Of a stretch of DNA of 64,000 nucleotides, positions 9,998-59,665 are shown one piece after another. The notes under the pieces were generated by a model, which searched no databases, had not been told where the DNA came from, and was given only the letters and a program-made list of their open reading frames with translations. The position numbers were made by a program, and so were the translations under genes. Source of the stretch: Candidatus Rokuibacteriota bacterium (GTDB lineage: Bacteria; Methylomirabilota; Methylomirabilia; Rokubacteriales; CSP1-6); NCBI GenBank assembly GCA_003220495.1, contig QHSP01000025.1, positions 1-64,000 on the forward strand, written 5' to 3'. Position 1 is the first letter of the stretch, and every line of letters starts with the position of its first letter.

Positions 9998-10231
9998 TTA
10001 CTTCACCGGGCGCCTCACCAGGGCCCAGCCCGATGCCTGGAGTTCTCGCGTTATGTCGCGGTGGCGCCGCTCGACGTGGCGTCGCTCGGCCGGTGGTGGC
10101 CTCTGGGTCCGGCGCCGTTCGCTTCCTCGTCGATCGAGGACCACGTCCCGGCCCTCGTCGGCATATACGTGCTTGAGATAGAAGTATTGTTTTGGCGCGG
10201 TACGCGACACGATGAATACAAGGTCTGCCAT
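9998..10231 (-). CDS. Small Arg-rich 'DRR' domain protein (unrecognised family)
   Basis: This 77-residue protein starts at an ATG with a strong GGAGGTGA ribosome site 7 bases upstream, so it is probably real. It begins with a short hydrophobic strand (ADLVFIVSR), a Tyr-rich segment (QYFYLKHVY), then VVLDRRGSERRR, ERRHVERRHRDI and GWALVRR. The same order occurs at residues 14-84 of the RsbT-like fusion encoded at 10613-11335 and at the N-terminus of the protein at 59153-59665. I do not recognise a characterised function. The alternating DRR/ERR clusters could bind nucleic acid, nucleotide or acidic protein partners; this is speculation. Confidence 0.7.
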   Translation of the reverse strand: MADLVFIVSRTAPKQYFYLKHVYADEGRDVVLDRRGSERRRTQRPPPAERRHVERRHRDITRELQASGWALVRRPVK

Positions 10232-10612
10232 CTCGCGTTCACCTCCGATAGATTCGAGTCTCTGGCCCACTCAAGGATGGAGGCCCGTGCAAACGCCGGA
10301 AGCTCGTGGCGCCGACCTGGGCCTCGCTGTCTTGCACGAGAATCTGAGCGGTCAGAAGACTCCACGACCGGAGAGACGGAAGGTAGATACGACGAACTCC
10401 GAGAGAGCGGTCGGCACACCGTAGCGCTGACGCAGGCGTTCCTGGGTGACCTGATGGGGATCCATTCGTGACATCCTGCTGCACACCGTGCGGCCAGAGT
10501 AGTGGGCCGGACAATAGGGTGATCCCCTAGAACACTCGACTGAATTCACCGATTCGAGCAGCCACATAACAACCATAGAGGAGCGGAGTTGGGGTGCCGC
10601 GCGGCTCAAAAC
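10232..10612. other. Gene-free spacer between the two DRR genes
   Basis: About 380 bases with no supported gene. On the minus strand TTGAGT lies 18 bases before TATCGG, just upstream of the small DRR gene, as a weak promoter candidate. The rest shows no repeats or strong hairpins that I can assign. Confidence 0.45.
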
Positions 10613-11335
10613 CTAGCGGTTATTCCGCCACTTCCTGACCGCGACCGTCGTGCCCCCGCCCAGCCGCGACGCGATGTGGAGCTCGTCCATGAGCCGCCGG
10701 ACGCCGGGCAGCCCGAGGCCGAGGCCCCCGGACGTCGAGAACCGCTCCTGGAGCGCCCGCTCGATGTCCGCGATGCCCGGGCCTTCGTCGATCACGATCA
10801 CCTCGACCCCGCGCGCCCGCTCGATTTCGATCGTTCGGAGAATGACCTCCCCGCGCGTCGCGTAGGCGATGAGGTTCCGCACGAGCTCGGACACGGCCGC
10901 CGCGACGCCCGCGGAATCGGTGGGTGACAAGCCGACGCTGACCGCGAGCTCGCGCCCTCGGTCGCGAGCGGACAGGGCGTCGGTCTCGTTGGCGACCGGC
11001 AGCAACACCTCGCTCCGGACGCGCGCGGGCTCCATCCCCGGACCGAGTGACCATCGCGTCGAATCGGACAAGGGCTCGGCGTCGCGTCGCACCAGCGCCC
11101 AGCCGGAGGTCCGAAGATCAATGGTGATGTCGCGCTGGCGTCGGTCGCGACTCCGTCTCTCCATCGTCGCCCGGTAGTCGGCCCGACGCCGCTCGCCGCT
11201 CCGCCGGTCGAGGACCACTTCCATGGTCGCGCTGACGAAATTACGGGTGAGCGACGTGTATTTCGCGAGCTCCTCGCGTGCCACGACGGCAAGGAGGGAC
11301 CCGGGGAGACCACCCGGACGCGGACTATCCTCCAT
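10613..11335 (-). CDS. DRR domain fused to an RsbT-like serine-protein kinase / anti-sigma ATPase
   Basis: This 240-residue protein joins two modules. Residues about 14-84 carry the Arg-rich DRR domain (VVLDRRSGERRR, ERRSRDRRQRDI, GWALVRR). Residues about 108-238 form a GHKL/HATPase_c domain of the RsbT type: N-box SELVRNLIAYA (149-159), G1 box DEGPGI (183-188), G2 GGLGLGL (203-209) and a final GGGTTVAVRKW. RsbT kinases phosphorylate STAS-domain proteins in partner-switching stress control. No STAS antagonist, phosphatase or sigma factor is adjacent. The ATG lies within an 18-bp tandem duplication and lacks a clear ribosome site. The kinase call is firm; the role of the DRR module is unknown. 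Confidence 0.85.
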   Translation of the reverse strand: MEDSPRPGGLPGSLLAVVAREELAKYTSLTRNFVSATMEVVLDRRSGERRRADYRATMERRSRDRRQRDITIDLRTSGWALVRRDAEPLSDSTRWSLGPGMEPARVRSEVLLPVANETDALSARDRGRELAVSVGLSPTDSAGVAAAVSELVRNLIAYATRGEVILRTIEIERARGVEVIVIDEGPGIADIERALQERFSTSGGLGLGLPGVRRLMDELHIASRLGGGTTVAVRKWRNNR

Positions 11336-56344: not shown

Positions 56345-59131
<2,787 letters not shown>

Positions 59132-59152
59132 ACCGAGCCCGTGGAACCCGTC

Positions 59153-59665
59153 ATGCCGGCCCAGCTATTCATCGTCGCCCGTCGTCATCCCGAGCTCTAC
59201 GACTACCTGAGCGCGCGGTTCACCGACGACGCGAAGGTGGCGGTCGTCCTCGACCGTCGGCTCGCGCCGCGCCGGCGGCGGGCGCTTCCTGCGGCGGCAG
59301 AGCGTCGTCGGGTCGACCGGCGCGCACGGCCGGAGGTCGACGAGCAGCTGCGGGCGACCTCGCTCGCGATCGTGACCGCACGGACGACGGCGGCCCCACC
59401 CGCGGGGAAGGCGCCCGTGAGCGAGGCACGGCAGTGGATCGAGGCGATGCAACACGGGGTGAAAGCCGTTCGCGGCGCCCTGGACGACCACGAGCGGCTC
59501 CAGCACGAGGCCCGGGCGCTCGAGCAGGAGAACGAACGGCTCCGCGCCGAGATCGACCGCTCCTCGAGAGAGCTTGCCGAGCTCGACTCCGGCATCACCC
59601 GTGCGATCGAGCTCGTGACCGACCTCCGCTCGCGCCTGCAGAAGGAACCAGAGCGGGGCTCGTAG
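59153..59665 (+). CDS. DRR-domain protein with coiled-coil C-terminus
   Basis: About 170 residues from ATG 59153, a start that aligns with the small DRR protein. Residues 1-78 repeat the DRR pattern (AQLFIVARRHPELYDYLSARF, VAVVLDRRLAPRRRR, ERRRVDRRARPEVDEQLRATSLAIV). Residues about 100-165 are a strongly predicted coiled coil (LDDHERLQHEARALEQENERLRAEIDRSSRELAEL). The arrangement suggests a dimeric regulator or adaptor in which the DRR module meets a partner. Its closeness to uvrA may be incidental. No function is recognised. Confidence 0.75.
   Translation: MPAQLFIVARRHPELYDYLSARFTDDAKVAVVLDRRLAPRRRRALPAAAERRRVDRRARPEVDEQLRATSLAIVTARTTAAPPAGKAPVSEARQWIEAMQHGVKAVRGALDDHERLQHEARALEQENERLRAEIDRSSRELAELDSGITRAIELVTDLRSRLQKEPERGS

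Follow-up and report, generated by a model that had tools for sequence, protein, structure and literature searches.

A recurrent arginine-rich domain of Rokubacteria signalling proteins as a candidate ligand-sensing module

Effectors of c-di-GMP rely on short motifs, RxxxR in PilZ, RxxD at the I-site and RxD-x8-RxxD in BldD, and the arginine-rich domain analysed here, which we call DRR, resembles them in placing arginine and acid at short fixed spacing within a small module that serves many outputs. It differs from them in having no sequence or fold match to any of these effectors, in carrying [DE]RRxx[DE]RR twice within a disordered loop, and in its beta-alpha-beta-alpha-beta core. In the way it is used, DRR works like STAS, PilZ and CheW, being found at either end of diverse signalling proteins and as many paralogues per genome, but it is unrelated to them in sequence and is so far known only from Methylomirabilota and Thermoleophilia. 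One of its partners belongs with the GHKL protein-serine kinases of the RsbT/SpoIIAB/RsbW type (PF13581, PF02518), which it matches in Pfam, in PDB sequences and in fold; unlike the matched families, the protein also has an N-terminal DRR domain.

The domain in the window and its fusion partners

The window, by which we mean the whole 64,000-nucleotide stretch of a Candidatus Rokuibacteriota contig (QHSP01000025.1), carries DRR in three architectures: alone, fused to an RsbT/SpoIIAB-type kinase, and followed by a C-terminal coiled coil (Table 1). The sequence-only reading had proposed these three architectures and a common order of motifs along the three segments, and both proposals hold, since all three frames are open over the extents given in Table 1 and share 23 invariant columns in that order. 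Its last block, GWALVRR, has to be restated, being the spelling used by a subgroup for a more general strand, G-[WYF]-[AV]-[IVL]-V, whereas the coiled-coil protein reads ATSLAIV there. The stand-alone gene lies downstream of the kinase fusion on the same strand and could also start at a GTG at 10270; a GTG at 59141 is likewise possible for the coiled-coil gene.

Table 1. Positions of the DRR genes in the window and of their parts
Feature	Position	Strand	Remarks
Stand-alone DRR protein	9998..10231	-	77 aa, ATG start; profile match 1.1e-32
Arg/acid loop of stand-alone DRR	10058..10135	-	DRRGSERRRTQRPPPAERRHVERRHR, residues 33-58; disordered in AF2 model
DRR-RsbT-like kinase fusion	10613..11335	-	240 aa
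GHKL/HATPase domain (SpoIIAB/RsbW/RsbT type)	10631..10972	-	Pfam, PDB sequence, fold
DRR domain of kinase fusion	11084..11299	-	profile match 2.5e-27
DRR-coiled-coil protein	59153..59665	+	170 aa
DRR domain of DRR-coiled-coil protein	59153..59380	+	profile match 5.9e-32
C-terminal helical/coiled-coil part of DRR-coiled-coil protein	59420..59647	+	resembles other DRR-coiled-coil proteins

The C-terminal half of the kinase fusion matches Pfam HATPase_c (2.8e-14; 53.9 bits against a cut-off of 26.4) and HATPase_c_2 (4.5e-13; 49.8 bits against 27.4), it matches SpoIIAB in the PDB by sequence, and its model is placed by Foldseek on SpoIIAB 1th8 (E 1.6e-6, probability 1.00). Its nucleotide-binding boxes are intact (N-box SELVRN, G1 DEGPGI, G2 GGLGLGLPG). 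It falls below the equivalog cut-offs for anti-sigma F (TIGR01925, 52.1 bits against 135) and RsbW (15.9 against 145), and we call it only a predicted RsbT-like GHKL kinase. Among the ORFs listed for the 7 kb around it, neither rsbR nor rsbS was seen next to the fusion. In another DRR-kinase fusion (L152:3770-4573) the kinase half lacks the G1 and G2 motifs and is a pseudokinase. The coiled-coil part of the third protein matched Pfam only weakly, to coiled coils; it is related to that of a DRR-coiled-coil protein elsewhere, L310 (E 2e-5), through which those of L033, L299 and L149 are linked to it. Directly upstream of this gene, on the same strand and across a gap of 10-22 bp, lies uvrA (window 56345-59131).

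Beyond the window, DRR stands N-terminal to RsbT-type kinases (the window and three other loci), to receivers (REC; three loci), to coiled coils (the window, L033 and L310) and to ECF sigma factors (several fusions, in one Thermoleophilia genome). It stands C-terminal to MASE1-PAS-HisKA without HATPase (L020, in the source genome, and L154), to GAF-MshEN, to adenylate cyclase-AAA-TPR, to sigma-54 activator-AAA-TPR and to a cNMP-binding domain (one locus each), as well as to two kinds of zinc-binding module. We consider it well supported that DRR is a real, conserved and independently shuffled domain of about 75 residues.

Some of these proteins deserve separate mention. The Thermoleophilia genome G239 encodes at least four, probably six, ECF sigma factors with an N-terminal DRR or DRR-like domain (L292, L293), possibly a new ECF group. 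In L020 (C82:45600-48809) and L154 DRR sits at the end of the protein, where a HATPase is expected, and the gene next to L020 encodes a receiver-containing protein. One zinc-binding module, CxWC-x(n)-LGExxPLxNPxxTHGIC-xxH, recurs in front of DRR (L036:1261-1773, L114:5378-5917, L032, L034 and L300) and has no Pfam family. A bactofilin (L140:1999-2577; the same gene appears as L314) has the DRR-type Arg motif only, with no beta1-alpha1, and a full DRR gene lies 1.4 kb away.

Conservation, distribution and predicted core

Across 211 distinct DRR domains R34 and R35 are conserved in every case, followed by R56 (99%), D33 (97%), R55 (94%), R39 and R40 (93 and 92%) and R50 (91%), while V30 lies in the same 94-99% range as D33 and R56. 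The acids that precede each Arg-Arg pair come close to the arginines themselves in conservation (position 33, D, 97%; 38, E/D, 88%; 49, E/D, 86%; 54, D/E, 83%), so that the series D33-R34-R35, ERR, ERR, DRR is kept across the set. The loop has [DE]RRxx[DE]RR twice, for at most four [DE]-R-R units at successive spacings of 5, about 11 and 5 residues. The second ERR block can be absent from natural members, at least from L030 of the source genome, which keeps the first.

Searched with a profile of eight members, the source genome, a Rokubacterium of 5.98 Mb, gives 31 matches (E<=0.01, best 7e-34). Throughout the phylum Methylomirabilota, 65 of 95 genomes have the domain, in at least 674 copies altogether and with at least 37 in the richest genome; these copy numbers are lower bounds, since the number of candidates scored in each genome was capped, and a search with fewer restrictions gave up to 41 in a genome. 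All counts come from unannotated six-frame searches, and the fusions are uninterrupted frames. DRR is present in 56 of the 57 genomes of the source genome's family, at 15-37 copies or more in each genome of the window's genus, and is absent from the 15 genomes of one other family, f5. A scan of named genomes gave matches in Candidatus Rokubacteria/Rokuibacteriota and a few in Actinobacteria/Thermoleophilia; this one scan, with the strict pattern V[IV][LM]DRRxGER, is what covers other phyla, and more distant forms may escape it. Among sampled Thermoleophilia 83 of 199 genomes have a shorter form, in which beta1-alpha1-beta2 and the Arg loop are kept and beta3 is lacking, and a broad, lower-sensitivity sample of Actinomycetota gave 13 genomes in 396, all but one already in the Thermoleophilia set. 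The Rokubacteria and Thermoleophilia profiles match at 99.0% probability, and with the Arg part removed hhalign still gives 96.7% and a score of 36.95, where 60 column shuffles reached at most 19.3. Judged by these profile comparisons, the two forms are homologous, including the beta1-alpha1-beta2 core ahead of the Arg loop.

Among the Rokubacteria loci, six have a stand-alone DRR gene beside purA. One of them (L106, JAHFDS010000336.1), a single Rokubacteria-like copy on a 9-kb contig assigned to Myxococcales, is probably misbinned and was not counted as an occurrence there. Plasmid searches and scans of viral contigs gave no relative, and PADLOC gave no match, so we reject a phage or mobile origin.

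In the AlphaFold2 model of the stand-alone protein (mean pLDDT 75, pTM 0.58) the order is beta1 (residues 3-8), alpha1 (13-22), beta2 (29-32), a disordered loop (33-60), alpha2 (61-67) and beta3 (69-74), and a separate model of the kinase fusion repeats the order beta-alpha-beta-loop-alpha-beta for its DRR part. With the Arg loop modelled as disordered, a conserved pocket could not be delimited. For the DRR part there is no Pfam or NCBIfam family above curated cut-off, PHROG matches are sub-threshold only, and no PDB sequence matches significantly, those to SEFIR (E 2) and a U5 helicase (E 0.3) being at chance level. Foldseek returned nothing below E 0.8 for the fold, the best being thioredoxin/KaiB at TM 0.3-0.4, and our literature search on the motif or on the domain in Rokubacteria found nothing relevant. 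The sequence-only reading had failed to link DRR to a characterised family, and these searches agree with it. It had also suspected a real, widely used domain, possibly with a sensory or adaptor role: the domain is real and has many copies and partners, far more than the three window sequences, but its spread, as far as these searches reach, is limited to two phyla, Methylomirabilota and, through Thermoleophilia, Actinomycetota.

Ligand sensing as the leading reading

Three readings of DRR remain, of which we place ligand sensing first, RNA binding second and homotypic docking third. We infer, with a probability of about one third, that DRR serves as a small sensory module and that an anionic guanine nucleotide, c-di-GMP being the first candidate, binds to its Arg/acid loop. 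The acids of the loop are kept almost as strictly as its arginines, which is more than plain polyanion binding needs and favours sensing; sensing is favoured too by the many signalling inputs and outputs to which DRR is fused, as sensory domains are. The loop contains R-x-x-[DE] twice, and acid/Arg spacing of this kind is also used by c-di-GMP sites. Against this reading, the loop is disordered in the AlphaFold2 model, where no pocket is visible.

How might such a module work? The loop would be the recognition site and would fold onto the anionic ligand, each acid reading the Watson-Crick edge of a guanine while neighbouring arginines take the Hoogsteen edge and the phosphates. Binding would order the loop and thereby change the attached partner. 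On the output side an RsbT-type kinase, as in the window, an ECF sigma factor or a receiver might be released or held, on the reporting side the zinc-ribbon, GAF-MshEN, cNMP or MASE1-PAS proteins would be placed, and stand-alone copies might influence protein partners in trans or titrate the ligand. Among known ligands c-di-GMP would come first, followed by a different guanine nucleotide, for instance (p)ppGpp.

The choice of c-di-GMP is suggested by the co-variation of DRR with GGDEF proteins and by a link to whiG. Within the family, DRR copy number correlates with GGDEF number at rho 0.60, the same after genome size is taken into account, in a comparison that ignores kinship, and genus means, with kinship again ignored, give rho 0.68 (n=24). 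Both correlations are positive, and the two numbers do go together. In Thermoleophilia DRR occurs in none of the 21 genomes that have a single GGDEF match or none, and in 83 of 178 others (Fisher 7e-6, a test that ignores kinship). General signalling richness may explain these correlations. In the same group DRR shares a gene block with whiG (loci L234-L253), made up of a xer recombinase, a whiG-type sigma factor, an EF-G paralogue, a zinc-ribbon protein, DRR and an RNase HI-like protein, of which we found no description in the literature searched; in these classes the whiG anti-sigma factor RsiG is c-di-GMP-dependent (PMC8325347). The zinc-ribbon protein of this block is not supported as a homologue of the zinc module fused to DRR in Rokubacteria (0.6%). 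The single DRR-MshEN fusion is, with the GGDEF co-variation, a further likeness to known effectors, MshEN being a c-di-GMP-binding domain.

Several observations speak against c-di-GMP as the ligand. Genome G085, which is 94% complete, gives no GGDEF match and yet has four copies of DRR, their Arg motifs intact, and the 15 genomes of family f5 have GGDEF without DRR. DRR matches none of the known c-di-GMP motifs (PilZ, MshEN, BldD, RsiG, I-site) in full, and Pfam finds no PilZ or MshEN domain within the DRR part.

A bolder and still more tentative proposal is that DRR constitutes a new class of second-messenger receptor, for a guanine nucleotide such as c-di-GMP, which in Rokubacteria would have become the principal domain for receiving signals and have been joined to kinases, sigma factors, receivers and cyclases, with the Thermoleophilia form as an older, mostly single-copy receptor in the whiG block. 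The dozens of copies in genomes of these uncultured soil and groundwater bacteria, with their many signalling partners, suggest a common signal-receiving module. At least 674 copies in 95 genomes of one phylum, with so many fusion partners, are invisible to the annotation libraries tested, and most signal-wiring proteins of Rokubacteria would therefore be called 'hypothetical'. Naming the ligand would allow hundreds of proteins to be annotated at once and, if it were a second messenger, would add a receptor class; the 77-residue stand-alone protein and the DRR-kinase fusion are direct test objects.

RNA binding, docking and the weaker readings

Suppose instead that DRR binds RNA or the ribosome, the Arg loop holding RNA and bringing a nuclease partner, sigma factor or kinase there. 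We regard this as rather unlikely, even with a loop that is disordered and rich in arginine and with neighbourhoods that point towards RNA. Stand-alone DRR genes adjoin RNases in separate lineages, an RNase HI-like gene at 12 of the 20 loci in Thermoleophilia, where stop and start often overlap, and, at four loci in Rokubacteria, a YacP-like NYN nuclease lying 7-31 bp upstream. In four loci of a second Thermoleophilia lineage DRR is accompanied by a PHP-domain protein, a radical SAM protein and an RtcB/archease region, and the whiG block contains the EF-G paralogue. However, with at least 37 copies in one genome some nuclease neighbours will arise by chance, the fusion partners of most Rokubacteria copies are signalling domains and not RNA enzymes, and a conserved acid ahead of every Arg-Arg pair is unusual in a nucleic-acid site.

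We consider it unlikely, too, that DRR is a homotypic docking module in which [DE]RRxx[DE]RR stretches pair antiparallel through salt bridges and so wire inputs to outputs. The reversed motif is self-complementary, D standing opposite R and R opposite E, the coiled-coil class is also dimer-like, and DRR is C-terminal on input proteins and N-terminal on outputs. The wiring proposed, which we hold to be just as unlikely, would run from HisKA-DRR, zinc-ribbon-DRR and cyclase-TPR-DRR inputs to DRR-RsbT, DRR-REC and DRR-ECF sigma outputs; in the source genome L020 ends in DRR at the place of a HATPase, and a separate DRR-HATPase is encoded in the window. On the other hand, in 67 of the 83 Thermoleophilia genomes with DRR the Rokubacteria-based profile picks up one copy, and the older function therefore cannot rest on pairing, or bridging, different DRR proteins. 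Moreover, the HATPase partner is a protein-serine kinase of RsbT/SpoIIAB type, which to our knowledge is not known to serve HisKA, and the full DRR-kinase fusion occurs in only 5 of the 95 genomes of the phylum.

Far less probable is a degenerate receiver (REC) or TIR/SEFIR-type domain, in which half a flavodoxin-like fold would be kept as a pseudo-receiver. With these domains DRR shares the alternating beta-alpha order, here predicted and with hydrophobic strands, the small size and a use in phosphorelays, given its fusions to HisKA, HATPase and REC, and the SEFIR chain match mentioned above is weak and non-significant. Unlike them it has three strands only, no detectable homology and no receiver active-site residues, the phospho-acceptor Asp being missing from the receiver position. 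Neither hhalign against a small REC alignment (0.2% probability), nor the PDB sequence comparison, nor Foldseek supports the relation.

The sequence-only reading had itself raised the worry that the Arg pattern might be functionless low-complexity drift, for which the very Arg-rich loop and the GC-rich genomes, whose alternative frames are Arg-rich too, might speak, but the chance of this is negligible and we reject it, given the invariant Arg-Arg pairs with their preceding acids over 211 distinct domains, the predicted fold, the Arg-free match between Rokubacteria and Thermoleophilia, and the codon and selection data. Arg codons in DRR are mixed (CGC 44, CGG 31, CGT 10, CGA 10 and AGG 4%), which excludes a repeat at the DNA level. 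Orthologues of the DRR-kinase fusion give a dN/dS of 0.30-0.42 over DRR, much as over the fused kinase (0.34-0.36), which indicates purifying selection. Among close relatives the Arg loop is the fastest-changing part of the domain (0.67-0.70, two pairs), the changes falling mostly at positions other than the arginines.
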